Assembly (NCBI GenBank): GCA_003245715.1
Contig: QKCJ01000026.1
Coordinates: 1 to 64,000 of the forward strand
Direction of reading: 5' to 3'
Source of the DNA: a bacterium
GTDB lineage: Bacteria > Planctomycetota > SZUA-567
DNA length: 64,000 nt
Of this stretch, positions 37,491 through 55,434 are shown one piece after another. Numbering within the stretch: position 1 is the first letter of the stretch; each line of letters opens with the position of its first letter. Below the pieces are notes generated by a model. The model made no database searches, was not told the DNA's origin, and saw only the letters and a program-made list of their open reading frames with translations. Made by a program: the position numbers and the translations under genes.

Positions 37491-37838
37491 TTACTGGTAT
37501 TGATAAGAACTTATCGCATCATCTTTATTTTCAAAGATATTAATCTGCTCGGTTACATGTATCCTATCCATTACTTTTTTTACCAACGGGTTGATATTGG
37601 TGAAACATAATCGCCCGCCTTTGCGCATGGAATCCCGGGTCAGGCTGCAGAACACGCCGTAGGCTATACTTGGCGGATTAGTCAGAGCGCCGCAATCAAT
37701 TATTATATTAAATATGTTTTTATTAAAATAGTTACTCTCAAAGTATGAACGCATATCAAGGAAATCATTCTGGGACATCTCGCCGGGAAAAGAGATAATC
37801 ACGGCATTTGTAGTTTCGTTTTCCAATAATTGGAGCAT
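37491..37838 (-). CDS. STAS-domain protein, last gene of the chemosensory operon
   Basis: This 115-residue protein starts at ATG 37838, which follows GGAGGAC; a longer frame from 37910 has no such site. It is a lone STAS domain (NAVIISFPGEMSQNDFLDMR, IFNIIIDCGALTNPPSIAYG), with S57 at the place where SpoIIAA-type proteins are phosphorylated. It begins 1 bp after the cheY stop. With the PP2C-HATPase fusion at the head of the operon it probably forms a partner-switching pair. The alternative is a structural adaptor of the array. Confidence 0.8.
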   Translation of the reverse strand: MLQLLENETTNAVIISFPGEMSQNDFLDMRSYFESNYFNKNIFNIIIDCGALTNPPSIAYGVFCSLTRDSMRKGGRLCFTNINPLVKKVMDRIHVTEQINIFENKDDAISSYQYQ

Positions 37839-37839
37839 C

Positions 37840-38226
37840 TTATTGTCCTCCGCTGTTTTCTGGAAGATCACCCAGTGACTTTTCAACCGCCGAGACAATC
37901 CTGTCTTCATTGAATGGCTTTACGACAAAATCTGAGACCCCAAGACGCATGGCCTCCAGCATCGAATCACGCTGATCAATAGCGGTAATCATTATCACCT
38001 TCACATCCTTTGATTCCCGCCGGATTTCACTGAGCGCCTCAAGGCCGGTTTTCTCAGGCATGACAATATCCATTGTCATCAGATCAGGCCGGAACTCGTT
38101 GAACATGTCAACAGCCTCAAACCCGTTGGCAGCCTCGCCGACAATATCAAACCCCAGCGGCTCAAGCGCGGTCCGTATCATCTTGCGCATAAAAAGAGCG
38201 TCATCAACAATCAATACTTTACTCAT
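37840..38226 (-). CDS. cheY: CheY-type single-domain response regulator
   Basis: The 128-residue receiver domain starts at ATG 38226, after AAGGGG. It has the acidic pair D8-D9 (VLIVDDA), phosphoacceptor D53 (MTMDIVMP), a threonine in VIMITAID and a lysine in VVKPFN. No output domain is present. It is the natural phosphate acceptor for the CheA of the same operon, with CheC as the likely phosphatase. Its start overlaps the upstream STAS gene by 8 bp. Confidence 0.92.
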   Translation of the reverse strand: MSKVLIVDDALFMRKMIRTALEPLGFDIVGEAANGFEAVDMFNEFRPDLMTMDIVMPEKTGLEALSEIRRESKDVKVIMITAIDQRDSMLEAMRLGVSDFVVKPFNEDRIVSAVEKSLGDLPENSGGQ

Positions 38227-38587
38227 AATGTACCCCTTGTGAATTATCAGATCCGACCTCAGCCGTCTCGTGTAGTATATTATTCTCAGCACCTTCCTCC
38301 CGCGCCACAACATAATCATGGAGGTTGGCAATACGCATCAGGGAGTTAAGCTTCCCCGTAGGCGTATGTAACTCAAGCCCGCCACCATTTTTTTTAAGGT
38401 GCTTTGCTGTTGTCAGCAAAAAACCCAGAAACTCCGCCGAGGTTATGGTGTAGCTCCCGTCCCAGTATATCTGGACATTGCTTATACCATTGCGGATCGC
38501 CGCCCGGATGCGGGTAGTCAGACCCTCGGCGTAATTACGGTCAACCTCACCTTTTATGTGCAGTACAAGAATATTTTTGCTGCTCAT
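38219..38587 (-). CDS. STAS-domain protein in the chemosensory operon
   Basis: The 122-residue protein is a STAS domain (ILVLHIKGEVDRNYAEGL, VQIYWDGSYTITSAEFLGFL) with S50 at the phosphorylation position. A polar tail of ~25 residues follows. AGGAGAAAAA precedes the ATG. It lies between cheD and cheY, overlapping cheY by 8 bp. Together with the 37491 STAS gene it gives the operon two potential substrates for the PP2C and HATPase domains encoded at the operon head. Confidence 0.8.
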   Translation of the reverse strand: MSSKNILVLHIKGEVDRNYAEGLTTRIRAAIRNGISNVQIYWDGSYTITSAEFLGFLLTTAKHLKKNGGGLELHTPTGKLNSLMRIANLHDYVVAREEGAENNILHETAEVGSDNSQGVHYE

Positions 38588-38623: not shown

Positions 38624-39133
38624 TCAGATAACCTGTCGCCTCTCAGCGAAATCTTCAACAACGTACTGCATATTTTCAATTGCAAAGCAAACCCGCCTGC
38701 CGACCGAGCCGCCGGTATCAGAGGAGACCACCGGAATATTATACTCACGCAACAGCGTCTGAACGGCGTTGATATTATTACTGCCGATATCACGCTGGAA
38801 CGGATTTTTCATATCAGAAAACATCTTCGCCCCGCCAGCGTACTTTGCCTTGAGCCTTTTTTCATTACCGCCATGCTTGACCAGCGCCCTCTTCAGACAC
38901 AGCACCGCATGGTCGGCATACTTGCCGGGAAGGTCTCCAGCACTTTTACCGCTTGAATCAGGAAGCAATATATGAGCCATCCCCGCCAGTGATATTACCG
39001 GGTCATAAATAACCAGACCGATACAACTGCCAAGCACAGACTCCAGCAGATTGGGCGTTCTGGTAATGCAAACCTGACCGATAAGCACCTTGACACTCTT
39101 GGCATTTTTTACCGCTTCTTTAATCGAGTCCAT
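38624..39133 (-). CDS. cheD: Chemoreceptor glutamine deamidase CheD
   Basis: CheD deamidates receptor glutamines and in Bacillus-type systems is bound by CheC. The 169-residue protein has LGSCIGLVIYD (catalytic cysteine), GMAHILLPDS (catalytic histidine), KYADHAVLCL, AKYAGGAKMF and IGSNNINAVQ. Its start overlaps the end of cheC by 14 bp, and TTGGAG lies inside cheC, so translation is probably coupled. The pairing supports regulation through CheC-CheD binding. Confidence 0.93.
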   Translation of the reverse strand: MDSIKEAVKNAKSVKVLIGQVCITRTPNLLESVLGSCIGLVIYDPVISLAGMAHILLPDSSGKSAGDLPGKYADHAVLCLKRALVKHGGNEKRLKAKYAGGAKMFSDMKNPFQRDIGSNNINAVQTLLREYNIPVVSSDTGGSVGRRVCFAIENMQYVVEDFAERRQVI

Positions 39134-39716
39134 GTTCTACCGCTCCAATTGCTACCGGGCTGGGAAGGAAGAGCAGTGACATGTTCATCTGCTTGCCTTC
39201 ACAGAAAAATTGAGATGAGAAAACAATCGCCTTATCCGAGTATTCAGCAGACTCCGTCAGAATCATCGACATGATCGAGCCGGTATAATCAAGCAGGAAT
39301 ATCGGCGCGCAAGGGACACTCTTCTTGCCGAGGTGCATGGTAAGGCTGTTCATAAACGAAGAGATTGTAATGTTAGCCGTCTCCTCAAGCATCGAACGCT
39401 CCATCTCGCCAAAGTCAAGAATACTTTCAGGTGACGAATCGCCGCTTAAAATCGAGACCAGCTTCTTAGCGTCATCATTATGAAAAAACAGTGCGGCATT
39501 ACCCGAGATCTCACCCTCAATCCGGCAGACAAGCGCCGCCGCCATCTCATCCTCGCCGCCCATACTCGCACTCACCTGATCAATTGGCATAAGGTCTACA
39601 CCGTTAATTTTAATATTAACCTTACTCGAGATAAAAACAGAAATCGCCTCGCTCGCATTCTCCGCACCACGGTGCGCAACAATCTCAAGCTCCGAGAGCA
39701 TTGTATTATCAATCAT
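39120..39716 (-). CDS. cheC: CheC-family chemotaxis phosphatase
   Basis: The 198-residue protein has the CheC/CheX/FliY pattern of two pseudo-symmetric helices: LEIVAHRGAENASEAISVF near the start and MLEETANITISSFMNSL in the second half, each with an E...N arrangement as in CheC active sites, although the first lacks the usual asparagine neighbour. The family dephosphorylates CheY-P and binds CheD. AAGGAGAAAG precedes the ATG. It lies 12 bp after cheA and overlaps cheD. A CheX assignment is a possible alternative. Confidence 0.8.
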   Translation of the reverse strand: MIDNTMLSELEIVAHRGAENASEAISVFISSKVNIKINGVDLMPIDQVSASMGGEDEMAAALVCRIEGEISGNAALFFHNDDAKKLVSILSGDSSPESILDFGEMERSMLEETANITISSFMNSLTMHLGKKSVPCAPIFLLDYTGSIMSMILTESAEYSDKAIVFSSQFFCEGKQMNMSLLFLPSPVAIGAVEHGLD

Positions 39717-39728
39717 CTGACTTTCTCC

Positions 39729-42700
39729 TTAGTTATTATCAAGAGCGTAAAATTTGTTATCAGGAACTTCCTTTGCCTTTTCACAGATCGACGGTACATC
39801 CAGTATCAGCGCAATGCGGCCATCCCCAAGAACAGAAGCACCCGAAACACCAACCACTCCCGCAAACTCCTCAGAAAGAGCCTTGACCACCACATCCTCC
39901 TCACCAATCACATAATCAACCACTACCGCCAATGTCTCACCGGTACCCTTGGTCACAACCGCACGCCTGGTGACACCGCGGGCTGATAATTTTTCCGCAT
40001 CAATCACATTCTCAAGTTCAACCAGCGCAATCACCTTGTCACGCAGCTTTATCACCTTGCCCTGATCCTTGATGGTGTGGATATCCTCAACCCTAACATC
40101 AACAATCTCCCGCACAGACTCAAGCGGGAAAGCGTAACAGGTCTCACCGATCGACACCAGCAGCGCTTCGATCATGGCCAGCGTAAGCGGCAGGCGGATA
40201 GTAAACGCGCACCCCTTGCCCTCTTCCGACTCAATATCAATCTTGCCCTTAAGCTCGGTGATCTTGCTCTTGACAATATCCATACCAACTCCGCGCCCTG
40301 AAATATTTGTCACCTGCGCCGCAGTGGAAAAGCCCGGACTGAAGATCAGGTTAAACGCTTCTTCATTACTCATGCCTGCGGCAATCTGCTCGGTTATAAT
40401 TCCGTTCTTGATTCCCTTGGCCTTGATCTTCTCAACCGCCAGACCGCGGCCATCGTCAGAGACCCGGATACAGATATGCCCACCCTCATGAAACGCGTCA
40501 AGATAAACCGTACCTGACTCATCCTTGCCGCCAAGCACCCGCTCCTCTGGCAACTCAAGACCATGGTCAACACTGTTTCTGATAAGATGTGTCAGCGGGT
40601 CGGAGAGTTCATCAATGAGTTTTTTGTCAAGCTCAGTCGTCTCACCACTGAGGACAAGTCTGGCCTTGCGACCATTACTCTTACTGACATCACGCACCAG
40701 CCTGTGGAAACGCTGGAAGAGCGGCCCCACCGGAACCATCCGCGCCTGCATTACACTGTTCTGCAGATTACTGGTGTGGCGATGCAATTCAAGCGAGGTC
40801 TCACGCAGCTTGCCGACAGTGTCCTGGGCTTTCTGCAACTCGGCGACCATGGCATGAAAACGTTTAATCTTGTCAGGGGTCATCCCCATCGGCCGCTTCT
40901 GGTCTGAGCTGCTGATGTGCAGTTCCGTCTGCGTGATAAATGCGTCCAGCCCGCGCACGTCAATACTCGCCAGAAGATGCGAGATATCCTCAGACAACTG
41001 ATTTACTCTGGCCTTGGTGATAACCAGCTCGCCGGTAACATTCATCATCTGGTCAAGGCGGGCAGTATCAACCCGGACAGTATCAGCCGCAGGCGATGAC
41101 GCGCCGACACTAGCAGATACCGCCGGGCCTGAAGCTTTCACGCCATTTTCAGCTTTGCGCTCCTGAGCTTTAAGCTGCTCGACCTTTACGCTTTCAACCT
41201 GATCCACCTGAATAATTTTTTTCACCGCATCAGCACCAATTGAGCAACCAAGCAGCAGTTGTAAAGGCGGCGGAGATTCAATGCCTTCATCAAGCTCGGT
41301 AATCGTCGGCACCGAGCAAATAATCTCGCCATGGTTTTCAATATTGCGCAAAATCATCGCATAACGCAAATCTGCAAGTGGCACATCATCCTGCAGGGCA
41401 ATCTTTATTTTAAAGACATTTCCGCCTGACGCCAGCACCTCATCAGCCCGGGCATCACCCTGAATATCAAGAGTCCATTCCGCCTTATTTTCTGCGGGCG
41501 CTACCGACGTCTGCGAAATCAGCGCCTTCAGTTCCTCATCAAGTTCCTCAGTAACCGGCGACGCAGTATCATTATTACTTACCCGCTTGAGACATTCATT
41601 AAGGACGTCCTTCGCCTTAAAAAGAACTCTGAACACACTCTCGTCTGGTACATCACCAGACTGGCGGTAACGGTCAAGCAGTGATTCACAGTTATGCGAA
41701 ATCCGCGCCATCTCGGAAAGGCCCATACTCGCAGCCGAACTCTTAAGGCGGTGCATCATCCGAAACATCTCGCCGATGTGCTTTGAACCCTGCTGGGGGT
41801 CCTGCTCAAACTCAAGAAGTGCCCGGTCAAGCTGATCAAGCTCTTCTGAAGTTTCCGAGAGCCATAACGGAAGATGTTTGAACATTTCTTCACGCACGGA
41901 AAGGATCACTACCGGCTCACCCGTATCCATAACCTGCGTCGGCAGAATCTCCACCGCTTCCTTTTCCTCTTTGGAATCAGCAAGCTTCCATAATTTCATT
42001 TCAGGCAGAAAATCATCCGACAACTTTTCCGCAAGGCTCTGGTCGCCCCAGCCAAAAATCCCTACATCATAATCATAATTAGACAGTGGCTGCCAGATGG
42101 ATTCAGTTAGCTCCAGCGGAATAACCGTCTGGATGTTAAGCTTCTGCTCAAATGTATGGAAGGTCTCAACCGGATCGATACCGATAGCAAAAATATCCGA
42201 AAAGGAAAACCGCAGCGCATAAACTTCCTGCCCGGTATTTCTGGCAATAAGCGCCTCCATCACATCATCAATTCCCAATCGCCCGCGTAACCACTCCGGA
42301 ACCCAGCCAAGCTCAAGCTCAGGGTTGGCCGCCGGGTCATTCTTCTCCGGCACCACCGCAGAAACATCCTCAAGCTCCTTGACAACTTCAGTGATATCAA
42401 CTTCCTGACTGTCGCCAGTGGTAAGCTGGGCAAGCAGCGCGCTTACCGTATCAAAAGCCAGAAACAACGCACCGATCACATCTTCATTAAATGCAAGAAT
42501 TTCTTTCCTGACCTGATCGAGTACGGTCTCAAGACTGTGGGTGACTTTCTGGATACTATTGAGTTTGAGAAAACCCGCCGACCCTTTCATTGAATGCGCC
42601 GCGCGAAACATTTCATCAATAAGCTCATGCGTACAATCACCTGATTCAGCCATCAGAAGTTTACTGTTAAGCGTTGCCAGACTCTGCCCGGCTTCATCAA

Positions 42701-42743
42701 TAAAATTGGCAAGGACATCAATGTCAGGGACATCATTACTCAT
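39729..42743 (-). CDS. cheA: CheA histidine kinase with duplicated N-terminal Hpt modules
   Basis: This 1004-residue kinase is longer than the usual 650-750. Hpt1 holds H50 (RAAHSMKGSAGFL) and Hpt2 H331 (RMMHRLKSSAASM). After each lies a ferredoxin-like, P2-type region (~170-250 and ~440-520). Then come the dimerisation helices (~560-690), the HATPase domain with N box HLIRNSVDHG (719-728), SDDGRGL (762-768) and GRGVGMD (817-823), and a CheW-like domain (860-990). The CheW-like domain shows it joins a receptor array with the MCP and CheW of this operon. It overlaps cheR by 8 bp. The two Hpt domains may serve different acceptors, for example CheY and the REC domains of the 48-kb fusion; this is inference. 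Confidence 0.95.
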   Translation of the reverse strand: MSNDVPDIDVLANFIDEAGQSLATLNSKLLMAESGDCTHELIDEMFRAAHSMKGSAGFLKLNSIQKVTHSLETVLDQVRKEILAFNEDVIGALFLAFDTVSALLAQLTTGDSQEVDITEVVKELEDVSAVVPEKNDPAANPELELGWVPEWLRGRLGIDDVMEALIARNTGQEVYALRFSFSDIFAIGIDPVETFHTFEQKLNIQTVIPLELTESIWQPLSNYDYDVGIFGWGDQSLAEKLSDDFLPEMKLWKLADSKEEKEAVEILPTQVMDTGEPVVILSVREEMFKHLPLWLSETSEELDQLDRALLEFEQDPQQGSKHIGEMFRMMHRLKSSAASMGLSEMARISHNCESLLDRYRQSGDVPDESVFRVLFKAKDVLNECLKRVSNNDTASPVTEELDEELKALISQTSVAPAENKAEWTLDIQGDARADEVLASGGNVFKIKIALQDDVPLADLRYAMILRNIENHGEIICSVPTITELDEGIESPPPLQLLLGCSIGADAVKKIIQVDQVESVKVEQLKAQERKAENGVKASGPAVSASVGASSPAADTVRVDTARLDQMMNVTGELVITKARVNQLSEDISHLLASIDVRGLDAFITQTELHISSSDQKRPMGMTPDKIKRFHAMVAELQKAQDTVGKLRETSLELHRHTSNLQNSVMQARMVPVGPLFQRFHRLVRDVSKSNGRKARLVLSGETTELDKKLIDELSDPLTHLIRNSVDHGLELPEERVLGGKDESGTVYLDAFHEGGHICIRVSDDGRGLAVEKIKAKGIKNGIITEQIAAGMSNEEAFNLIFSPGFSTAAQVTNISGRGVGMDIVKSKITELKGKIDIESEEGKGCAFTIRLPLTLAMIEALLVSIGETCYAFPLESVREIVDVRVEDIHTIKDQGKVIKLRDKVIALVELENVIDAEKLSARGVTRRAVVTKGTGETLAVVVDYVIGEEDVVVKALSEEFAGVVGVSGASVLGDGRIALILDVPSICEKAKEVPDNKFYALDNN

Positions 42744-43572
42744 GACTTGTCTTCCTATAAATAGTCGGCCTTACATAAGAATATTGATTATGCAAGCTGG
42801 AAATAGTCTCCGCGCCGCCAAGAAACAGATACCCGCCAGGCTTGAGAACTCTGGTGATATTCTCCATCACCTTGTGCTTGCTCTTCTCATCAAAATAAAT
42901 CATCACATTGCGCAGAAAAACAATGTCAAACTGTGAATTACTCAGCGGCTGCTGCAGGTTATGAATTTTAAAATCCACGATATGGCGTATCTTGTCAATT
43001 ACCCGGAAACTGCCGGGCGTTGCCGAAGCCGCGAAATATTTCTTCAGACATAACTTGGTCAGCTTCTGTAGAGAATACTCGCCATACTCCCCGCGCTTGG
43101 CCTGAGCGATAACATCATGGTTGATATCCGTAGCCAGCACCTCGACTTTCTTTCCCGCGCTGTCACCGGCAATAAGATCATACAGTAGAATACCCAGCGA
43201 GTACGGTTCTTCACCCGTCGACGAAGCCGCACTCCAGGCGCGGAAGATCTGTCCCGGACGGTAATCCCTCTTCCATTCCGGAACAATTGTCTCGGCAAGA
43301 TAATCCCAGTGGTTTTTATGGCGAAAGAAGAAGGTCTCGTTTGTTGTCAGGGCGTTAATGCAATTCTGAAATTCATCCTTATTGCGTTTATCATTGATAA
43401 ATTCGTAATACTCGCCGTAACTGTTAAGTTTAAGCGTCTGCAGCCTCTTGCGCAGACGATTCTGCACCAGCGAATGCTTCTTCTCACTCAGGCGGATACC
43501 TGCGTGACTGTACATCAGATCCTGAAACAATTTGAATTCCCGCATTCGCAGTGTTGTGTCTGTTGCTGTCAT
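42736..43572 (-). CDS. cheR: CheR chemoreceptor methyltransferase
   Basis: The protein has 278 residues from ATG 43572, which follows TGGAGTT; the frame extends upstream to 43671 without a site. The N-terminal helical domain contains MYSHAGIRLSEKKHSLVQNR. The SAM-binding domain has IFRAWSAASSTGEEPYSLGI, ATDINHDVIAQAKRGEY, FKIHNLQQPL, FDIVFLRNVMIYFD and LKPGGYLFLG. It methylates receptor glutamates. No CheB methylesterase is encoded anywhere in the window, so the partner reaction may be elsewhere or absent. Confidence 0.95.
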   Translation of the reverse strand: MTATDTTLRMREFKLFQDLMYSHAGIRLSEKKHSLVQNRLRKRLQTLKLNSYGEYYEFINDKRNKDEFQNCINALTTNETFFFRHKNHWDYLAETIVPEWKRDYRPGQIFRAWSAASSTGEEPYSLGILLYDLIAGDSAGKKVEVLATDINHDVIAQAKRGEYGEYSLQKLTKLCLKKYFAASATPGSFRVIDKIRHIVDFKIHNLQQPLSNSQFDIVFLRNVMIYFDEKSKHKVMENITRVLKPGGYLFLGGAETISSLHNQYSYVRPTIYRKTSHE

Positions 43573-43633
43573 ATTAACTCCATTTGCGGGGCTGCCGACC
43601 TGACCAAACAACCCCGCCGGATATGAAGATAAA

Positions 43634-45664
43634 TTACTCGTGATAAAGCGCGCCGTCAGCGATATCATCATCAGGCAGTTTTATATCCGCTTTTGAACTT
43701 GCCGGCGCATAAGCCTTTGCCTTAGCACTCTTTTTTGCCGGTGCGGTATTGCTTGTTGCGGAAGTATGAGAACGCAGCCTGAAGCGATCCACCAGGTTCT
43801 GCATCTTCTGTGCCTGCGCCGACAACTCCTCTGCACTCGCGGCCATTTCTTCTGCGCTTGATGAATTCTCCTCGGTAATTGCGCTGATACTGTCTATCGC
43901 CTTACTTACCTGGTTTGCCGTCTCTGACTGCTCTTCTGTTGCTGAAGCTATCTCGGTCATGCCAGTAGCAGTCTTGGTTATGCCTGCAAGAATATCTTGC
44001 AATGACTTTCCGACCTCTTCAGAGAGATGCGAACCCTGTTCAACGCGCTTGCTAGATTCTTCAATCAGTTGGGTGATTTCTTCAGCGGCCTGCGATGATC
44101 GTTCAGCCAGCTTCCGAACCTCATCAGCGACGACCGCAAATCCCAGACCATGCTCACCGGCACTCGCCGCTTCAATCGCCGCATTAAGGGCAAGCAGGTT
44201 TGTCTGGTTGGCAATCTGGCTGATTACGCTGATGATCTTGCTGATCTGGGTTGACGATTCATTAATAAGGCCCATGCCTTCAACCGACTGCTTGACAGTC
44301 TCAGAACCGTCTTCAGCGGTCTTGCTGGTTTTGAGTGACACTTCATTAGCCTGACTGGCGTTTTCCGCAGCCTGCTGGATCATCGCCGTAAGCTCTTCCA
44401 TGCTGGCGCTTATTTCCTCAACGCTTGAAGCCTGATTCTGCGCACCACTTGAAATATTCTGGGCAGACGCAGAAAGCTCCTCACCACTGGCGGCAGTCTG
44501 ATCGGCCGCTTCCCGTATCTCTGAAATAACACTGTTAAGTTGATCGGTCATCTGATTAAGCGCAGTAGCCATCTGACCAAACTCGTCTTTTGAATCAAGT
44601 TTGGCAGTGACCCGCAGATCGCCATCAGCAATAGCCTCAAGCGGCTCGATAATGCTGCGCGCACCGCGGCTGACATTCATCGCTAGGAAAATACTTACAA
44701 TAACCGCACACAAGACCGCGATAATCGACATAGTTATAATCAGCGTATTGAGGAATTTCAGGTTTTCTTCTGACTTTTTCTTCACCTGATCAATATACTC
44801 ATACACACCGTCACGCACCTTGCGGCACTGTTCCATCGCAGCGTTGGCAGCTACGCGCTGCTGCTCCTGTATATCACGCTGCTTAATCTGCAGTTTCCTG
44901 AAAATCATAACCTGGTTTGTGTATGCTTCCAGATTTTTCTCAATATTGTCAAGCTCCTCAAGTACCTCTTTGGCGGTAAAAAGCGACTTGCAGCTTTCAA
45001 CCTGCTTGTGACACTTGGCAATCTCCGCCATCCATTCTTCAGCAATACTATTCTGAGCTTCTTCACTTATGGCAAGCTGATATTTCTGCGCCCATATACG
45101 TACTCGGTTATAGGAATTTCTTACTTCCTGCGCAGTCTCAAGATTTACCACTTTTTGATGGTCGACTTTACCTTCAACAATGCTGTCAGCTATAAATTTC
45201 TGTTCATGTACTATCATTGCCTTGATTGAAGCAAGCACCTTTGCTGAAGCCTGGGTACGTAACTTGCCGGCGGCATTTTTTTCTTTCTCGACATTCCACC
45301 AACTAGTTGACTCAGCCTGATACTTTCCAATCGCCTCGTCAATACCGGCTGCTTTTTCCTTGTTCTCTTTTGACTGCATCAAAGTCTGCGCCTTCTTTGC
45401 GCTGTTTTTGACATTATTGACTTCTTCTGCAATTCCGGCGTTATATTTTTCATCCTCATACAGCATCAAACGCAAAGTATTTGCCTGCACGTCTCCGGTA
45501 TCAACCAGTGAACTGTTCACTGTCTCTGTAATTTCCATCTGATTTAAAATAGCATCCATGTCGCCTTTTGATTCGCCCATCCCGACATAACCTGAAACAC
45601 CGACAGCTATCAAAAGCAAAATGACAATACCAAACCCCAAAGACAGTTTCATACCAATCTTCAT
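43634..45664 (-). CDS. Methyl-accepting chemotaxis protein with long helical sensor domain
   Basis: The 676-residue receptor has TM1 at about 7-27, a ~270-residue all-helical periplasmic sensor resembling the helical bimodular (HBM) or long four-helix type, TM2 at ~300-325, a HAMP domain to ~378 and the signalling domain to ~640. The hairpin tip reads [20 protein letters not shown] near 490-510, where most MCPs have EAARAGEQGRGF. The C-terminal tail is low-complexity Ala/Lys/Ser and lacks an NWETF-type tether. AAAGGAATT precedes the ATG. It is the only receptor in the operon and so probably its dedicated sensor. Ligand unknown. Confidence 0.93.
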
Positions 45665-45692: not shown

Positions 45693-46199
45693 TTATTTTA
45701 CGATAGTCTGTTCCACTTCCTGCTTTTCCTCACGGCTGAGAATCTTCTCAATATCAAGCATCATAATCATGCGTTCCTCAATTTTCCCGATACCGGTAAG
45801 GTACTCTCCGGCAATTGAGGCGATGGTATCCGGTGGCGGCTGGATATCAGTATTAGGCAACTTCATAACCTGCGAGACTGAATCAACAATCAGTCCGACA
45901 ATCCTCTTGTCCATTCGCGAAACAACAATACGTGTTTCCTCAACAAGCTCAGCGTTCTTGAGGCCAAAGCGTTTACGCAGGTCAATAACCGGCACCACCT
46001 CGCCACGCAGATTAATAATACCCTCGATATATTCAGGCATCTGCGGCACACGGGTAATCCCCTCGACAAGAATGATCTCCTTTACCCTGGTAATCTCAAT
46101 TGCATACTCTTCATCAGCGAGCTTGAAACTGACCACCTGGGTGAAGTCCTTCATCTTCAACTGCATACGCTTTTCTTCCTGTAGCGTCTCCTCCGGCAT
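45693..46199 (-). CDS. cheW: CheW adaptor protein
   Basis: CheW couples receptors to CheA. The 168-residue protein has the two SH3-like lobes: VVSFKLADEEYAIEITRVKE, RVPQMPEYIEGIINLRGEVV and VIDLRKRFGL in the first, VGLIVDSVSQVMKLP in the second. GGAAGGAGC precedes the ATG. It has a 17-residue charged N-terminal extension and lies 28 bp before the MCP gene. Confidence 0.95.
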   Translation of the reverse strand: MPEETLQEEKRMQLKMKDFTQVVSFKLADEEYAIEITRVKEIILVEGITRVPQMPEYIEGIINLRGEVVPVIDLRKRFGLKNAELVEETRIVVSRMDKRIVGLIVDSVSQVMKLPNTDIQPPPDTIASIAGEYLTGIGKIEERMIMMLDIEKILSREEKQEVEQTIVK

Positions 46200-46221: not shown

Positions 46222-46725
46222 CTAACCCTTATTTTTTATGCTTATAACCAGCACTTCCCCGCACATCTCACTATCGATTAATATTTGTGTCTCAACCTCA
46301 CCGCCGGCAACCGACCGGTCAAGACAGACTTGCACCGCTGATTGCGGCTTGCCCGTCCTGATTGTTTCAACTATCACTTTGCGCAGTTCACAGTCATCAC
46401 AGAATGCCGACTTACCGCACCCACCCGCCTCAAAGGCATGACAACAGCCAACCGCATCGCCCGGAAGTTTGTTGAGCAAGTCTTTCTGATTCTTGTCAAG
46501 CAGACTACAGGCCTTGGCATTAGCGGCAACCACAAGCCCGTCATTATCCAGAACCACCAGCGGTTGATTGAAACCCTCCAGAATCAGCCCCAATCCTTCC
46601 TGACCCTGATTGAGCAATTCATTCCGGCACAAATGACATATCCCGTGCGTTATCGGATAAGTTTTATCAGAGACCTCATTACAATCATCAATTATGACTT
46701 TGCACCATGCGCAATGAATATTCAT
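46222..46725 (-). CDS. Cysteine-rich PAS-domain protein
   Basis: The protein has 167 residues from ATG 46725, after GAAGGGCG. An N-terminal zinc-ribbon-like part (CAWCKVIIDDC, then CHLCRNEL) precedes a PAS domain (QPLVVLDNDGLVVAANAKAC). The PAS domain contains an inserted cysteine cluster (AVGCCHAFEAGGCGKSAFCD, ending CELRK). This GC-H...GCG...C..C cluster recurs in PAS domains of signalling proteins of anaerobes and may bind zinc, iron or heme; that is inference. No output domain is present. Placed between the PP2C fusion and cheW, it could be a soluble redox or metal sensor for the array. Confidence 0.7.
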   Translation of the reverse strand: MNIHCAWCKVIIDDCNEVSDKTYPITHGICHLCRNELLNQGQEGLGLILEGFNQPLVVLDNDGLVVAANAKACSLLDKNQKDLLNKLPGDAVGCCHAFEAGGCGKSAFCDDCELRKVIVETIRTGKPQSAVQVCLDRSVAGGEVETQILIDSEMCGEVLVISIKNKG

Positions 46726-46775
46726 AAATCGCCCTTCAACAGCAGATCTGACCAAATTCCAGTTTAACTCTTAAA

Positions 46776-48794
46776 CTAAACCACCTCCTGCTTGTTGAAA
46801 TATTTTGTCAACACCGCAGAGTTGCCGCGTTCATTGTAAGCAATATGGTCGACCATACTCCTGACAATAGGCAATCCAAAACCGCCATCACGCTTGCCCA
46901 ACCTCTGGCGCTCCATCTGCGAGGAAGCAACGTCCTCATTCTCTTCAAAAACCTGCCTTGCGTTGAACCCACCACCCTCATCCTGTATCCGCACCAATGC
47001 CCGGTCTTCAAGAAGCACGGTACTGATCCTGACTTTAAGACCGGGGTTATGATGATTACCCCATTCAATTGCATTGCCGGCAATTTCACGGATACAATAA
47101 ATAAGATCATTAAGAATGTCTGCAGGTATCGGCTGCTTGTTTAAAATCATCAGGTAATTGGTCAGCATCTGCAGGCACTGCGGCGATGATGAGATAATGC
47201 AATCCAGCCAGTCACGGGAAATTGTATCAATCTGGATATCATCGCGCTGGGGCTTGTAATCAAGGGCGGCCTGCACCGTCTCCCTGAAAGCCTGCAATGA
47301 AAATGGTTTTGCCAGTAACCCGGCAGCTTTTTTACTTACCGCAACCGTGACATGTTCCTGCGGTTCCTGCCCGGTCATCAGCAACACCGGCAGCGACGGA
47401 TAACGCGAATGAATAACACTCATGGCATCAAGCCCACTCACCCCGGGCATATAAATATCCATGATTACCATATCCGGCTTGAATTCATCCACTACCTCTA
47501 GAATGCTCGCCCCGTCAGCAAGACACTTCACCATCGCCCCATCCTGCTGCAGAAGATCCGTAACCAGATTAAGGATTGATTTATTGTCATCAACCACCAG
47601 CACCCGTTTGCCGCTTAGCCTTGACGCAGGTTTATTTACCGCCGTCATTTTCTGCGCTATCAGAAGTACCGCAATATCATCAGCAAACGCCCTGGCCGGA
47701 TTCATCTGCGCAGCTTCATCAAAGATAAAAGTCAGCAGGTCTTCATTACTATGGGAATTTTTCCTGACCGTCTTCCACTGTGAATACTCTTTGCTTATCT
47801 GCATGGCCAGGTCTTCAGGCTGTTCGGTGAGGCCGTCGGTATAAATAAGCAGATAATCCCCGGACTCGAATTTGTATTGCCTGATCTCAAAGTCTTTTGG
47901 TATGTCAAGGCCCAGAGCCGGACCGTTGGCGTAAAGACATTCGCAGTTACCGCTGTTCTGGATAATCACCGGTTCAAGATGTCCCGCCAGCGAATAGGTC
48001 AGCACCTTGCTGCTCTCATTATAGATCCCGCAGAATGCTGTGACCAGATACTCCTCAGGCAAGACCTCACGCACGATATGATCCGCGCTTTTGAGAATCT
48101 CTGATGGGTCTTTTAGCGGCGCGATTGAATTAAACCAGATTTTGAATGCCGAAGCCGAGAAAGCTGCCGGCAGGCCGGAACCACTGACATCGGCAAGAAA
48201 TATCAGCAGGTTTTCATCATCAAGGTAACGCAGGTCGATAAAATCCCCACCGATACCTGACATTGGAAGATAACGGATACAGACATCGGTGTGCTTGATC
48301 CAGTCAAAGTTTCGCGGAATCAGCCTGCCGTGCATCTTGCGCAGATACTGGCGGTCACGGATATTTGTCGACTCTTTTGCCTTGCCGTTCTGCAGGTCTT
48401 CGGAGATACTCTCAAGACGTCCCCGCGTTTTATGTTTATCTTCAAGCTGACTTACAACCAGCTCCAACTCCTGCAGACTTACAGGCTTGCGCTGCACAGA
48501 AACCGCCCCCAGTTCAATTGCCTGCCTGATACTCAGATCGTTGCCGTAACCACTGAGCAGAATGATATCAATATCAGGATAATCCTTTTTGATCGTCTCA
48601 ATCAGATTTCTGCTCCCCTGCTGGCACAGGCGCAGATCGGCAATCACCGCGTCAATACCATTGCTGTTCTTATCGATAAGCTGCAAGGTCTCTGCCGCAT
48701 TATGAGCCGAATAAACCTGATGCCCACATTTGCGGAAAAAATCCGAAAGGGTGCTTGCGATTAACGATTCATTATCCGCAACTAAAATCCGCAT
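46776..48794 (-). CDS. REC-PP2C(SpoIIE)-REC-HATPase fusion protein
   Basis: The 672-residue protein heads the chemosensory operon. REC1 spans 1-120 (D7, phosphoacceptor D53, K103). A SpoIIE/RsbU-type PP2C phosphatase spans ~165-382 with intact metal aspartates in IGGDFIDL (D184), ADVSGSG (D202), LLIYTDGLTE (D320) and FADDIAVL (D372). REC2 spans 396-515 (VLVVDDN, phosphoacceptor D446, AKPFS). An RsbW/SpoIIAB-type HATPase follows to ~665 (REIAGNAIEWGN, QDEGGGFN, GGFGLPIVRSM). One chain thus holds the phosphatase and the kinase-like half of a partner switch under two receivers. The STAS proteins of the same operon are the likely substrates, and CheA the likely phosphodonor. Confidence 0.93.
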   Translation of the reverse strand: MRILVADNESLIASTLSDFFRKCGHQVYSAHNAAETLQLIDKNSNGIDAVIADLRLCQQGSRNLIETIKKDYPDIDIILLSGYGNDLSIRQAIELGAVSVQRKPVSLQELELVVSQLEDKHKTRGRLESISEDLQNGKAKESTNIRDRQYLRKMHGRLIPRNFDWIKHTDVCIRYLPMSGIGGDFIDLRYLDDENLLIFLADVSGSGLPAAFSASAFKIWFNSIAPLKDPSEILKSADHIVREVLPEEYLVTAFCGIYNESSKVLTYSLAGHLEPVIIQNSGNCECLYANGPALGLDIPKDFEIRQYKFESGDYLLIYTDGLTEQPEDLAMQISKEYSQWKTVRKNSHSNEDLLTFIFDEAAQMNPARAFADDIAVLLIAQKMTAVNKPASRLSGKRVLVVDDNKSILNLVTDLLQQDGAMVKCLADGASILEVVDEFKPDMVIMDIYMPGVSGLDAMSVIHSRYPSLPVLLMTGQEPQEHVTVAVSKKAAGLLAKPFSLQAFRETVQAALDYKPQRDDIQIDTISRDWLDCIISSSPQCLQMLTNYLMILNKQPIPADILNDLIYCIREIAGNAIEWGNHHNPGLKVRISTVLLEDRALVRIQDEGGGFNARQVFEENEDVASSQMERQRLGKRDGGFGLPIVRSMVDHIAYNERGNSAVLTKYFNKQEVV

Positions 48795-49046: not shown

Positions 49047-50654
49047 ATGTATAGAGCAGAAAATAAATTTCATATTCTGGTTGTGGATGATATTCAGGCA
49101 AGCCGGGATGTACTGGTTAAAGTATTGCGTACTGCCGGCTATATCGTCAGTTGTGCGGAATCCGGTAATTCGGCCTTTGCCCTGATCCGTAACCACGTGC
49201 CGGACCTGATCCTACTTGATGTAATCATGCCGGATATGGACGGGTATGAGGTCTGCCAAAATATTAAAAACAACCAGCGCACTGCCGGGATACCGATAAT
49301 TTTCTTAAGCGCACATGATGACCCGGAGAATAAAAGGGAAGCTTTTGAGCAGGGAGGGGTCGATTTTATCGCAAAACCCTTTAATAATTCGGAGGTTATC
49401 AGCCGGGTAAAGACCCATCTCAGCCTCAACCTATTACAGCGCGAGCTTGAGTATATGAACCATGAACTTGAAGAACGGGTGACGGCGCGCACGGATGAGC
49501 TTATCAAGGTGCAGCAGCAACTGGCCCAGAGCCAGAAACTTGAAGCTATCGGGCATATTACCGCAGGTATCGCCCACGACTTCAAAAACCTCATCGGCAT
49601 AATAATGAGCGGCGCTGAGTATATGCAGATAAACGGCCTATGCCCGGAAAACGCAAAACCTTATATGGAATCCATCCTTGATGCTGCCCACAAGGCAAAA
49701 GAGCTTACCGGCAACCTTCTTGCTTTCAGCCGCCAGCAGCAGCAGCAACAGAAAACGCTTGTCGATATCCATGAACTGGTTAATAATATTGTCAACCTTA
49801 TCAAGCACAGCTTTGACCGCAAGATCGAGATCTCCATAACCTCTGAAGCCATAAGCGCTTTTGTCCAGGGAAACCCGGCCAGTATCCAGACGGCTCTGCT
49901 TAACCTTGCCCTCAACGCCCGCGATGCCATGCCTGAGGGAGGTCGGCTGAGTATCAAGACTGAGTTATGCGGCACTTTGCCCGAGCGGCTTTTGTTTACT
50001 CCGGAAAAAAATTCACCAAGCTGGCTGCTTCTGGAAATCAGTGACAACGGCTGCGGGATTTCACCAAAGGATATCTGCAGGGTCTTTGAGCCATATTTTA
50101 CGACCAAGGACCGCGGCTGCGGGACAGGGCTTGGTTTGTCTACAGTTTACGCGATGCTGCGCGACCATAACGCCGCACTTAGCGTCAGCAGTTCTGAAGG
50201 GGAAGGCACAGCCTTCAGGCTGTATTTTCCGCACGCTGAAAGTTATAAGCCCAAAAAAATAGCCCGGCCTGAAATCTCGGTACGCGCCGGCACTGAAACC
50301 ATCCTGATTGTCGATGACGAGCTATGGATACGCCGCAATTTCAAGGATCTTCTGAGCGGCCTTGGTTATAAGGTGTACACCGCAGAAAACGGCAAGAAAG
50401 CCCTTGAGCTATATATGAGTACTCCGGGTATAGACCTGGTTATTGTTGACATGATAATGCCTGTGATGAACGGCCTTGATACGGTTATCGCGCTGATGGA
50501 ATACGACCCACAGGCAAAAATTATTATTTCAACCGGTTTCTCAGAGCGCCAGGCAATTTCTGACGCCAAGGATGCCGGAGCAAAGGGGGTTGTCTATAAA
50601 CCGACCAGTGTCGGGGAACTTACGCAAAATATTGATCTGGCTTTGAGGAATTAG
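49047..50654 (+). CDS. Hybrid histidine kinase REC-HisKA-HATPase-REC
   Basis: The 535-residue soluble protein starts with a receiver (ILVVDDIQASRDVLVK, LILLDVIMPDMDGYEV, IAKPFN). A coiled-coil (LEERVTARTDELIKVQQQL) leads to the phosphotransfer histidine in TAGIAHDFKNLIGII. The HATPase has LLNLALNARDAMPEGG, EISDNGCGIS and GCGTGLGLSTV. A second receiver ends the chain (TILIVDDELW, LVIVDMIMPVMNGLD). No sensor or membrane segment is present, so input probably comes by phosphotransfer to REC1. It is the first gene of a three-gene operon with 2-bp gaps. Confidence 0.93.
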   Translation: MYRAENKFHILVVDDIQASRDVLVKVLRTAGYIVSCAESGNSAFALIRNHVPDLILLDVIMPDMDGYEVCQNIKNNQRTAGIPIIFLSAHDDPENKREAFEQGGVDFIAKPFNNSEVISRVKTHLSLNLLQRELEYMNHELEERVTARTDELIKVQQQLAQSQKLEAIGHITAGIAHDFKNLIGIIMSGAEYMQINGLCPENAKPYMESILDAAHKAKELTGNLLAFSRQQQQQQKTLVDIHELVNNIVNLIKHSFDRKIEISITSEAISAFVQGNPASIQTALLNLALNARDAMPEGGRLSIKTELCGTLPERLLFTPEKNSPSWLLLEISDNGCGISPKDICRVFEPYFTTKDRGCGTGLGLSTVYAMLRDHNAALSVSSSEGEGTAFRLYFPHAESYKPKKIARPEISVRAGTETILIVDDELWIRRNFKDLLSGLGYKVYTAENGKKALELYMSTPGIDLVIVDMIMPVMNGLDTVIALMEYDPQAKIIISTGFSERQAISDAKDAGAKGVVYKPTSVGELTQNIDLALRN

Positions 50655-50656
50655 TT

Positions 50657-51805
50657 ATGTCTGCATTAAAATTAGAGGCCGAAAATTTCTACGGCAACAT
50701 TATCAATAATTGCGCAAGTGTGATTATGATAATCAATTCTTGCTTGCGCATCGAATACATCAACGATTTCGGCGTTAAGATTTTTGGCTACGGCAAGAAC
50801 GAACTGATCGGCCAGCCGCTGCAGCCTTCGATTATACCCCATCAGGATTCCGAGGGCAATCTAATCGACATGGATAAAATTTTCAGTGAAAATTGTTCTG
50901 AAGCTTATCAGGAATGTGAGCACCAGACCAAACAGGGAACGCGGTTGTGGCTCTGCTGGAACTGCGGGCTATATAATAATCAGAGCAATAATGCCAAACA
51001 GATTATCTGTACCGGCATCAATATTACCGGCCACCATCTGCTGCACCAGACCATGCGCAAACAGCAACTTCTGGCTGTAAAGGCCGACCGCCTGCGTTCT
51101 CTTGGTGAAATGGCCAGCGGTATGGCGCATGAGTTCAACCAGCCCCTGACCATTATCCGCGGAGCAGCGGAGAACCTGCTGATTGGTGAGCAGCGCGGCT
51201 GGGATATCAGCTCTGAAGAAAGAATTGAACGCCTTGAAGTAGTTATCGACCAGACGGCAAGGCTTACTGAACTTATCGACCACGTACGCTCTCTCTCAAA
51301 CAGCAACAGTAATTCCGAAAAAGTTCCGGTGGACTGCCGCGAACTTCTGGAGAGCGCCCTTGGCATGGTCAAGGCCCAGATCTACTCACGCGGCATCGAG
51401 ATCGAGACTGATATCGCTTATCAGGGCCTGAAGGTCATCGCCAACCCCTTCTCGCTTGAGGAATCAATTTTGGCGCTTCTCTATAACGCCCGTGACGCGG
51501 TACAGGAAAGTCTGGCCAAACATGAAGGGAAAGAAGCGAAAATATATCTGAAGTTATCCCGACTCAATAACGGGCGCGAGATATGTATTGAACTGCGTGA
51601 CACCGGAACGGGAATTGACGAGAGTATACGCGATCGGATTTTTGAGCCGTTCTTCACCAGTAAAGCACCCGACCGCGGCACCGGCCTTGGCCTGTCCTCG
51701 GCTAAAAATTCCATTGAAGAAATTGGCGGCAAACTTGAACTTGAGTCAAAGCTTGCAGAAGGCACCACCATCCGCGTAACCCTGCCGGCAATCGGAGAAA
51801 ACTGA
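50657..51805 (+). CDS. PAS-domain sensor histidine kinase (NtrB-like)
   Basis: The 382-residue soluble kinase has a PAS domain (VIMIINSCLRIEYINDFGVK, FGYGKNELIGQPL), the phosphoacceptor histidine in GMAHEFNQPLTIIRGAAENL, and a HATPase (ESILALLYNARDAVQES, LRDTGTGIDESI, GTGLGLSSAKNSIEEIG). The AHEFNQPL form is typical of kinases paired with sigma-54 activators. Cysteines in LWLCWNCGLY near the end of the PAS domain are unusual. It lies 2 bp after the hybrid kinase and 2 bp before its probable partner regulator. Confidence 0.93.
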   Translation: MSALKLEAENFYGNIINNCASVIMIINSCLRIEYINDFGVKIFGYGKNELIGQPLQPSIIPHQDSEGNLIDMDKIFSENCSEAYQECEHQTKQGTRLWLCWNCGLYNNQSNNAKQIICTGINITGHHLLHQTMRKQQLLAVKADRLRSLGEMASGMAHEFNQPLTIIRGAAENLLIGEQRGWDISSEERIERLEVVIDQTARLTELIDHVRSLSNSNSNSEKVPVDCRELLESALGMVKAQIYSRGIEIETDIAYQGLKVIANPFSLEESILALLYNARDAVQESLAKHEGKEAKIYLKLSRLNNGREICIELRDTGTGIDESIRDRIFEPFFTSKAPDRGTGLGLSSAKNSIEEIGGKLELESKLAEGTTIRVTLPAIGEN

Positions 51806-51807
51806 AT

Positions 51808-53232
51808 ATGCCTGAAGAAATTCTGATAATTGATGATGAGGAGCAGATCCGCAAACAGTTTTCCGATTTTCTCAGAAGGCTGGGCTATACTGTAACCTGT
51901 CTGAGTAACGCACAGGAAGGCATCAGCCATATTCAGATGAATAACCCGGCCGTTGTTATTGTCGACATACTACTCCCGGGCATGAGCGGCCTTGACATGC
52001 TCAAGGAAATCTCCCAGCACAGCGTGCTGCCGGAGGTAATTGTCATCAGCGGACATGGCACACTTGATGCCGCGATTTCCGCGCTCCGTTACGGTGCGGC
52101 GGACTTTATAAAAAAACCGGTAAACCTCAATCAGCTTGAAGGAGCCGTCGCTAGATGTATCCGCAAATCTTCCTCACGCAACAACCACAATGTCATCAGC
52201 CAGAATAACAGAAATATTTTCAGGGAAGTTGAATGTATCGGCAACAGCGCACAGATAATGCAATGCCGCAGAATGACTGAAGTCGCCGCGCAATCACCCT
52301 GCCACAGCATTCTGATAACCGGCGAGACCGGTACCGGCAAAGAAGTAATGGCGCGTCTTTTCCATCAGATCCGTTACGGCAACAAACGCCCCTTTATCGC
52401 TGAAAACTGCCCGGCCATCGCTGAGAGCCTGATTGAGAGCGAACTCTTCGGGCACGTTAAAGGCGCCTTTACCGGCGCACAGAGCGACCGGTCTGGCGCG
52501 TTTGAACAGGCCCACGGCGGGACGCTATTTCTTGATGAGATCGGCGACCTGAGTCTCAACGCTCAGGCCAAACTTTTGCGTGTTCTTGAGAACAGGACTG
52601 TGCGCCGGGTTGGCTCTTCTGAGGAGAAGCATATCGACGTTACCGTTGTCGCGGCAACCAACTGCAATCTCGCCAAGCAGGCATCACTGGGCAAGTTCCG
52701 GCAGGATTTATTCTTCCGCCTCAATTGCTTCGCGCTCCACCTGCCGCCGCTGCGCGACCGGATTGACGACATCATCCCCCTGGCCTCATTTTTTGCCGAC
52801 AGGTTCATGCCGTCTTCCTCAATCGGCGGCAGAAAAATCACCTTCTCGGACAAAGCCAAGGCTGCGATGCTTGAATACAAGTATCCGGGCAATGCCAGAG
52901 AACTGCGTAATATTATCGAGCGCGCCTGCATAATTTCTCCCTCCAGCGAAATCGGCATCAATGACCTTGAATTCGCCTATCCGGAGTATATCAAACTTCC
53001 TGAAGTTGACGAGTATACACAGGAAGATGAAACAGCGGCGGCAATTCTGACTGGTGATGATTGCGCAATGGGAGAATACCTGCAGGATGAAATTGATGCG
53101 GTTTATCAGGCGCTACAGAAATCCGGCTGGAATAAAAGCAAAGCTGCACGCTTGCTTGGCATCAGTTATGATGCACTGCGCTGGCGGGTGAAAAAATACC
53201 AGCTTAAAGAACCGCAGAGCTTTATTCATTAA
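51808..53232 (+). CDS. Sigma-54-dependent response regulator (NtrC family)
   Basis: The 474-residue activator has a receiver ([37 protein letters not shown]) and an AAA+ domain. The AAA+ domain carries the Walker A motif [14 protein letters not shown], an intact GAFTGA loop for contact with sigma-54, and Walker [13 protein letters not shown] Fis-type helix-turn-helix ([20 protein letters not shown]) ends the chain. The GAFTGA motif indicates true sigma-54 activation. It closes the three-gene relay operon and is followed at once by a terminator. I found no convincing -24/-12 promoter in the window, so its targets may lie elsewhere. Confidence 0.96.
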
Positions 53233-53295: not shown

Positions 53296-55434
53296 TCAAT
53301 TAGGAATCTTCAGAACAAACGCCGTTCCAAGTCCCAACCTCGAGTCAATATCAACCTCGCCGCCAAGCTCCTGACGTATGGTATTCTGCACCGCGTCAAG
53401 CCCGACACCCCGTCCGCTGATATCACTTACTGTCTCGGCAGTTGAAAATCCTGGACGGAAAACCAGTTTCAGCTTTTCTTTCTCATCAAGACTGACGGCT
53501 TCCGAATCAGAGATGATCTGCTTTCTCAATGCGCTCGCCAGAAGCTTCGCTGAATCCATCCCCCGCCCGTCATCGCGGATTGTAATATTAAGCCCCGCGT
53601 CGTTATTTTCAACAGACAGGGTAACTGTCGCTTTCTCAGGCTTACCGGCATTCTGGCGCTCCTCTGCCGAATCCACACCATGGTCGCAGGCGTTACGCAA
53701 AAGATGCACAAGCGGCCCGTTGAGCGCGTGACCTGTCTCATAATCAATCAGCACATCACGCCCCTGGAAGACGAAATCAATCTCTTTATTAAGGCGCTTA
53801 ATCAGATCAGGAATTATTTTAGTCGATCGCGTCAGTGCGCGGTGTGCCGGGATTGACTGCAGATCTTTTAATTTCTTCTGCAGCGCGCCAAGACCCTGAC
53901 TGTCAGCAGCCATCGCTGAAAGCTCACGCAAAACCGTGAGCGGCAGACGCACAGACGGCCCGTCGGAACTTAGCTCCTCACCAATTATCGGCGCCGCAAT
54001 TTCACAGGCTTTAGTTATGGTCTCGTCCAGCCTTTCAAGCGCCTCGCTTATGCCCTGAACAAATTCCTTCTCAAGAACCGTCGCATTACGCGCCTTGCTG
54101 AGATCATTTTCAAGCTCTGCCGATACCGCAGCAAGATCCTGCAAGCCGAAACTTCCGGCAGCACCTTTAATGGTATGCACACCCCGGAACATGTTATGAA
54201 TAAGCTCAAGCCAGTTTTCAGCTTTCTCAAGACTTTCAAGACTGACATGAAGCTCTTTCTGAATCTTCATGGTCTCGCCTAAAAATTCCCTGAAGGTGTC
54301 CGGGTCTTCAGCTATCGCCTTGAGCTGCATATTCTCCTTCTGGCTTGCCGCAACCTCAGACTCAAGACGCTTGGCCTCGGTAACGTCCTCAAGTTCAACC
54401 AGAATATCGCCACTCGGCTCGCCGTTACGCTCTACCGGATAATAGCGCAGGCGCAACCAGCAGGACTTGTCACCTTCTTTAAGCTCAATCTCCGGAAAAG
54501 GATTCAGCGGCTCCAGATCATCAGAGGAGAGCAGCCCCATCCTGACAATCTCAAAGAAATCCTCCGCCTGTTTGCGCTCATCCTCATGCCGCCTCGTCAA
54601 ACCGACAAGATCAAGAAAATCACGCCCGCGGATAACCTCCTGATTTAAGATACTTGTCGCGGACAAACTATGCTCAGGCTTGACCCGACCGTCTTTATCA
54701 ATTGACAAAAGGCCAACCGGAACCGTGTTCATAATCTGCTTGATCTCTTCAGTACGTGCGGCAACCAGAGCGTCAAGATCGGTCATGGCTTTGTTGATGG
54801 TGTTAAGCATCAGATTAAAGGCCGTCGCCAGCTTGCCAAGCTGCTCATCATCATGCACCGGCATCTCAGTGGCATAATTGCCCTCGGTAACCGACTGGAT
54901 GGTATTAACCACCTCGTCAATAAGCGTCCCCCTAAAGACATCCTGCTCACGCAAAGCTTCAAGCTCACTGCGCTCCTGCTCACTCAGCAAATCACCACAC
55001 AGGGCAACCTCTTCAGATTTTTCCCCTGTGACCACCGGAGCCTTATCTTTGGCAAGCTCAGTCGCCTTGTCAATCAGAGAAGCAAGCGTCTTCATGCCAT
55101 CAAATGACGAACCAAGGTCAACACCAGTACGGGCCGCAATAAGAATACGCCGCGCCTGGTTGACAAAGCAGGCATCATCATGCGCCTCCTCACACTTGCC
55201 GCAAAGTCCGTCCACCGCCACCAGCGCCTTGTCAAGAGACTCCTGCTCGTAATCAGCTTTCTCCGGCGGGAGGTCTACCGGCGCTGCATCATTGTTGATC
55301 TGCCGCTGGTTCTTGACAAAGTCCAACAGGATATCCGCGGCCAGTTTAGCCAGCACGCCGTTGGGCTGTTTCTTGATTAGCTTTTTTACAAGCTGATGGG
55401 CTTTGAATGTATCCTTATGACTGCCGACAGGCAT
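53296..55434 (-). CDS. Soluble CheA-like kinase HAMP-PAS-Hpt-HATPase without CheW domain
   Basis: The 712-residue protein has no membrane segment. The N-terminal ~165 residues are helical with a CGKCEEAHDDAC cluster at 79-89. A HAMP-like segment and coiled-coil lie at ~170-232 (TIQSVTEGNYATEM, LGKLATAFNLML). A PAS domain (VPVGLLSIDKDGRV) spans ~235-355. An Hpt domain carries H420 (FRGVHTIKGAAGSFG). A CheA-type HATPase ends the chain (LVHLLRNACDHGVDS, IRDDGRGMDSAK, ISGRGVGLDAV). It stops exactly where CheA's CheW-like domain would begin, so it cannot dock to a receptor array in the usual way. AGGAGAAG precedes the ATG. Together with the downstream-facing relay it may feed the hybrid kinase (inference). 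Confidence 0.9.
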   Translation of the reverse strand: MPVGSHKDTFKAHQLVKKLIKKQPNGVLAKLAADILLDFVKNQRQINNDAAPVDLPPEKADYEQESLDKALVAVDGLCGKCEEAHDDACFVNQARRILIAARTGVDLGSSFDGMKTLASLIDKATELAKDKAPVVTGEKSEEVALCGDLLSEQERSELEALREQDVFRGTLIDEVVNTIQSVTEGNYATEMPVHDDEQLGKLATAFNLMLNTINKAMTDLDALVAARTEEIKQIMNTVPVGLLSIDKDGRVKPEHSLSATSILNQEVIRGRDFLDLVGLTRRHEDERKQAEDFFEIVRMGLLSSDDLEPLNPFPEIELKEGDKSCWLRLRYYPVERNGEPSGDILVELEDVTEAKRLESEVAASQKENMQLKAIAEDPDTFREFLGETMKIQKELHVSLESLEKAENWLELIHNMFRGVHTIKGAAGSFGLQDLAAVSAELENDLSKARNATVLEKEFVQGISEALERLDETITKACEIAAPIIGEELSSDGPSVRLPLTVLRELSAMAADSQGLGALQKKLKDLQSIPAHRALTRSTKIIPDLIKRLNKEIDFVFQGRDVLIDYETGHALNGPLVHLLRNACDHGVDSAEERQNAGKPEKATVTLSVENNDAGLNITIRDDGRGMDSAKLLASALRKQIISDSEAVSLDEKEKLKLVFRPGFSTAETVSDISGRGVGLDAVQNTIRQELGGEVDIDSRLGLGTAFVLKIPN

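Follow-up and report, generated by a model that had tools for sequence, protein, structure and literature searches.

A planctomycete REC-PP2C-REC-HATPase protein in a conserved chemosensory operon: a predicted receiver-controlled partner-switch enzyme

Known one-chain partner switches and the planctomycete protein

Several partner-switching systems carry opposing activities in one protein. In HsbR of Pseudomonas and CrsR of Shewanella, the receiver, PP2C and kinase/anti-sigma domains lie in a single chain, and both proteins bind RpoS (PMC6482189). HsbR is fed from hybrid kinases through HptB (PMC6482189), and its phosphorylation raises phosphatase activity while repressing kinase activity. Control of PP2C by a receiver and linker has been proposed for RssB, from P. 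aeruginosa structures, and for RsbU, and there is genetic proof for HsbR. CrsR and its STAS partner CrsA are encoded within the Shewanella che1 chemosensory locus, and Che1 has been proposed as the controller of RpoS via CrsR/CrsA (PMC9855816). Ancestral F7 clusters contain CheA, two anti-sigma factor antagonists (STAS) and a serine phosphatase (PMC7184735). Rv1364c has PP2C, anti-sigma (kinase) and STAS domains in one chain (PDB 3ke6), and a REC-PP2C-kinase protein of Campylobacterota is proposed to influence a chemoreceptor via STAS. HsbD represents a further type of target of STAS switches. SypA is likewise a STAS protein, and SypE has the domain order kinase-REC-PP2C. In Vibrio fischeri, the response regulator SypE exerts its control over SypA by way of phosphorylation (PMC12369376). 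Given the precedents of HsbR, CrsR, che1, F7 and the Campylobacterota, both the one-chain switch and the chemosensory control of such a switch are already known. The initial annotation of the locus described here, which held that phosphatase and kinase normally reside in separate proteins, was too strong on this point, as HsbR, CrsR and Rv1364c join both.

We analysed a 64,000-nucleotide stretch (the window; contig QKCJ01000026.1) from a member of SZUA-567, which GTDB lists as a putative class of Planctomycetota (PMC12159837). It encodes P0001, a 672-residue protein which, like HsbR and CrsR, has an N-terminal receiver, a PP2C domain and an RsbW-like HATPase, but which has in addition a second receiver (398-507). 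As in those systems, STAS proteins with a phosphorylatable serine are encoded nearby (Ser50 of STAS1 and Ser57 of STAS2). A close counterpart is CrsR-CrsA of S. oneidensis, where a REC-PP2C-kinase protein and a STAS protein are also found in a cluster with CheA, CheY, CheW, CheR, CheD, CheB and MCPs (PMC9855816; PMC6482189). However, CrsR contains a single receiver and works with a single STAS protein, whereas in P0001 an extra receiver separates PP2C from the kinase and the operon encodes two STAS proteins, and CrsR targets RpoS whereas the P0001 operon has no known linked sigma target. HsbR-HsbA of the P. aeruginosa HptB pathway shares the receiver-controlled chain with PP2C and kinase domains and the STAS partner, and for HsbR the opposing activities are known; it differs in having one receiver and HptB with hybrid kinases as its phosphate source, while P0001 shares an operon with CheA. 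Rv1364c of M. tuberculosis resembles P0001 in joining PP2C to an RsbW-type anti-sigma domain, but it has a PAS input and its STAS domain in the same chain, where P0001 has receivers and separate STAS proteins. SypE-SypA is similar in its control by phosphorylation, but SypE has one receiver and another domain order and belongs to an exopolysaccharide locus. The gamma-proteobacterial F7 stage-1 clusters match the P0001 operon in CheA, two STAS proteins and a serine phosphatase, with no fused kinase named (PMC7184735). A limited literature search found no description of the four-domain REC-PP2C-REC-HATPase form. The novelty lies in the additional receiver that separates phosphatase from kinase, together with the conserved planctomycete operon.

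Domains, key residues and operon of P0001

The REC-PP2C-REC-HATPase architecture proposed in the initial annotation, where the strand was not given, was borne out by Pfam, with all three families above their curated cut-offs: Response_reg (2.8e-40, in two stretches), SpoIIE (6.7e-36, residues 192-379) and HATPase_c_2 (1.2e-12, residues 551-664). Among proteins of known structure, the HATPase matches RsbW (6m36, E 8e-6) and weakly SpoIIAB (1til, E 0.04), the PP2C domain matches Rv1364c (3ke6), and the REC-PP2C part matches P. aeruginosa RssB (3eq2) across residues 3-339. An AlphaFold2 model built from an alignment of two rows was poor (mean pLDDT 56, pTM 0.29).

Residue positions were taken from an alignment of five complete proteins, namely P0001 and four relatives. 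The PP2C metal aspartates (D184, D187, D202, D320 and D372/D373) are present in P0001 and intact in four of the five proteins. The receiver phosphoacceptors D53 (REC1) and D446 (REC2), accompanied by K103 and K496, and the HATPase N-box (E570/N574), G1 (D605) and GGxGL (G637-L641) residues are all present, the phosphoacceptor aspartates and the HATPase residues being invariant in all five. The HATPase is the best-conserved domain, at 42-51% as against 30-39% for REC1, PP2C and REC2. REC2 of P0001 is complete (acidic pair, Asp, Thr/Ser, Lys). The key residues that the initial annotation saw in PP2C, receivers and HATPase are thus there. The acidic pair of REC1 is D7-N8 in P0001 and D-D at the same site in the four complete relatives. 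With Asp-Asn in place of Asp-Asp the Mg site is altered, and Mg binding by REC1 may be weakened. In the homologue of genome G037 (L086:7266-9227, plus strand), GEN replaces the ADD/GDD motif so that the last PP2C aspartates are gone, and REC2 has EN; its phosphatase may be inactive, and the activity is therefore perhaps not kept in every cluster.

P0001 is the first gene of a closely packed minus-strand series, with intergenic gaps of at most about 37 bp, which follows the order of Table 1 down to STAS2. The two STAS genes that had been placed in the same operon are confirmed there; the open reading frame called for STAS2 extends up to 37910 and overruns CheY, the gene itself being as tabulated. 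Both STAS proteins keep a serine at the phosphorylation position and are without the classical D-[ST]-S context of SpoIIAA. CheA has the histidine in both Hpt domains (AAHSMKGS and MMHRLKSS). A role as redox or metal sensor of the operon is conceivable for the Cys-rich PAS protein that separates P0001 from CheW; no counterpart was found among the homologous clusters. Elsewhere in the window, a weak STAS match (3e-4) lies at 386-598 on the minus strand.

Table 1. P0001, its operon and the adjacent genes in the window
Feature	Coordinates	Strand	Basis and remarks
P0001: REC1 (1-115)-coil-PP2C (about 171-382)-REC2 (396-512)-HATPase_c_2 (513-668)	46776..48794	-	Reads 48794 to 46776; Pfam, residues, homologues
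Small Cys-rich (CxxC) PAS protein	46222..46755	-	PAS fold 7e-7; Met start probably 46725
CheW	45693..46199	-	Pfam
Methyl-accepting chemotaxis protein, 4HB-HAMP-MCPsignal	43634..45664	-	Pfam
CheR	42736..43671	-	Pfam
CheA: two Hpt, P2, dimerisation, HATPase and CheW domains; candidate phosphodonor	39729..42743	-	Pfam
CheC/CheX-like phosphatase	39120..39716	-	S-x3-E-x2-N motif conserved; weak Pfam CheC/CheX, below cut-offs
CheD	38624..39133	-	Pfam
STAS1, candidate substrate, Ser50	38219..38587	-	Pfam STAS 2.6e-6; Ser conserved
CheY	37840..38226	-	Met start read at 38226; sequence, homologues
STAS2, candidate substrate, Ser57	37491..37838	-	Pfam STAS 1.7e-10
HK1, hybrid REC-histidine kinase-REC; alternative phosphodonor	49047..50654	+	Conserved neighbour
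HK2, histidine kinase; alternative phosphodonor	50657..51805	+	Conserved neighbour
NtrC-type sigma-54 response regulator	51808..53232	+	Conserved neighbour

Conserved clusters and predicted function

Five complete proteins, and a further one truncated by its contig, share this architecture; they come from two families of one phylum. The homologue in G015 is full length, 40% identical and from the same family as the window, and 392 genomes sampled from the phylum yielded four further homologues, all from a single other family; three of these are complete and that of G264 is cut by a contig end. A profile search at E <= 1e-60 returned the same six proteins and no others. Full-length homologues at 34-40% identity rule out P0001 as an annotation error or a chance reading. 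A tblastn search of plasmids for P0001 gave none, and a contig scan with poor peptide patterns, which says nothing of other phyla, gave only the SZUA-567 homologue already counted (QKHZ01000152.1, evidently the contig of G015) and partial receiver/PP2C matches.

The order P0001, MCP, CheR, CheA, CheX-like, CheD (or its stretch), STAS1, CheY, STAS2 is shared by all five clusters, of which that of G288 is split across two contigs and that of G037 has the CheD stretch without a separate gene call. CheW was matched in four of the five and not found in G121. Relatives of the CheX-like protein occur in 42 of the 392 genomes, inside che clusters in the examined cases, and the protein is a marker of a broader family of such clusters. 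STAS2 is present in all five clusters with P0001 and in none of 12 comparison che clusters without it (L112 and L114-L124), a small sample in which related genomes are not independent; this pattern agrees with P0001 and STAS2 being functionally linked. STAS1 is also present in all five, and in one cluster without P0001 (G002, same family).

Judging from domains and residues, we think that P0001 is probably a bifunctional, phosphorelay-gated partner-switch enzyme, acting as both STAS kinase and STAS phosphatase. Its RsbW/SpoIIAB-type domain would phosphorylate Ser50 of STAS1 and/or Ser57 of STAS2, its PP2C domain would strip the phosphate from these serines, and the phosphorylation state of the STAS proteins would decide their binding partner. 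Phosphorylated REC1 would act on PP2C via the coiled linker and REC2 would most likely gate the kinase, so that the two activities would be under opposite control, with phosphate supplied by the operon's CheA through its two Hpt domains and/or by the adjacent HK1 and HK2. STAS1 and STAS2 need not be the sole substrates: the G002 cluster keeps STAS1 without P0001, and STAS domains are matched at 19 places in the genome, so that other STAS proteins could serve as well.

The initial annotation also proposed that phosphate flow from CheA sets the state of the two STAS proteins. The association with the operon's CheA and STAS genes recurs in five genomes belonging to two families and CheA input to P0001 is plausible, but it is not exclusive, because two histidine kinases and an NtrC-type regulator stand beside P0001 in most clusters and are equally good candidates as phosphodonors. 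They adjoin it in four of the five (window, G288, G121 and G037), with an NtrC fragment upstream in G015, and they are co-directional with P0001 and immediately upstream of it in G037, and nearby in G288 and G121. It is conceivable, if doubtful, that HK1 and HK2 (with NtrC) feed the receivers in place of CheA and that the chemosensory operon is no more than a neighbour, downstream or parallel, much as HsbR is supplied by hybrid kinases via HptB (PMC6482189). Against this, P0001 heads the tightly packed che operon whose CheA carries two Hpt domains, the kinase genes and NtrC are divergently upstream of it in the window, and the ten genes listed for che1 include CrsR and no HK1/HK2-like kinases (PMC9855816). 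Both sources might also act together, REC1 and REC2 being fed by different donors (CheA and HK1/HK2) and separately gating phosphatase and kinase, so that one molecule would compute the ratio of two inputs and write it as serine phosphorylation on two STAS outputs; we regard this as quite unlikely. Next to the NtrC gene lies a CheA-like protein (53296-55434, minus strand) with Hpt and HATPase domains and a weak HAMP match, in which a CheW domain was not found.

The binding of RpoS by CrsR and HsbR (PMC6482189) raises the question of whether the C-terminal domain of P0001 is mainly an anti-sigma factor, sequestering an alternative sigma factor, as CrsR does RpoS, until the STAS proteins set it free. 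Besides a 558-residue RpoD-like sigma factor, the genome encodes two shorter ones with region 3, but no sigma factor was seen in the operon or the conserved neighbourhood and STAS switches have other targets, such as HsbD; we consider such a main role unlikely, though it would be compatible with the bifunctional enzyme and the two are not exclusive. A still less probable reading is that one enzymatic half is vestigial and P0001 is essentially a one-way enzyme or a scaffold. The GEN and EN changes in G037 and the Asp-Asn pair in REC1 of the window protein point in this direction, but every key PP2C and HATPase residue is present in P0001, and the PP2C aspartates are kept in all complete proteins except that of G037. 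If the bifunctional reading is true, chemosensory-controlled partner switching, known until now chiefly from gamma-proteobacteria, would extend to the Planctomycetota. P0001 would be a compact system with one receiver ahead of each of two opposing predicted enzymes, suited to a direct test of separate receiver control over phosphatase and kinase.

Origin of the four-domain form

In the HATPase tree, the sister group of the P0001 domain consists of two-domain REC-HATPase proteins from the phylum (joint support 0.96), and in G002 and G015 such REC-HATPase genes adjoin a REC-PP2C gene. The simplest account, which the sequences suggest, is that P0001 arose when a REC-HATPase gene and a REC-PP2C gene fused; support for the origin of its PP2C domain in the PP2C tree is only 0.36. 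An HsbR-type protein with an inserted receiver is disfavoured, since the P0001 HATPase groups with the stand-alone REC-HATPase proteins and the HATPase of this genome's HsbR-type protein fell short of the 1e-5 threshold in the domain search, which together make fusion likelier than insertion.

Adjacent REC-HATPase and REC-PP2C genes of this kind lie at L051:7253-9448 and L052:48-2401 in the same phylum, their REC-HATPase proteins belonging to the sister group just named. Unlike in P0001, these are two genes, in opposite order and outside a che operon, and the N-terminal receiver of the PP2C partner looks degenerate, apparently without the phosphoacceptor Asp. A second REC-PP2C-HATPase protein, of HsbR type and 565 residues long, is encoded at G000:C41 (L054:4373-6070, plus strand). 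Its gene adjoins those for a sugar transferase and an apparent glycosyltransferase, and a STAS protein is encoded some 5 kb upstream; the locus resembles SypE/SypA.
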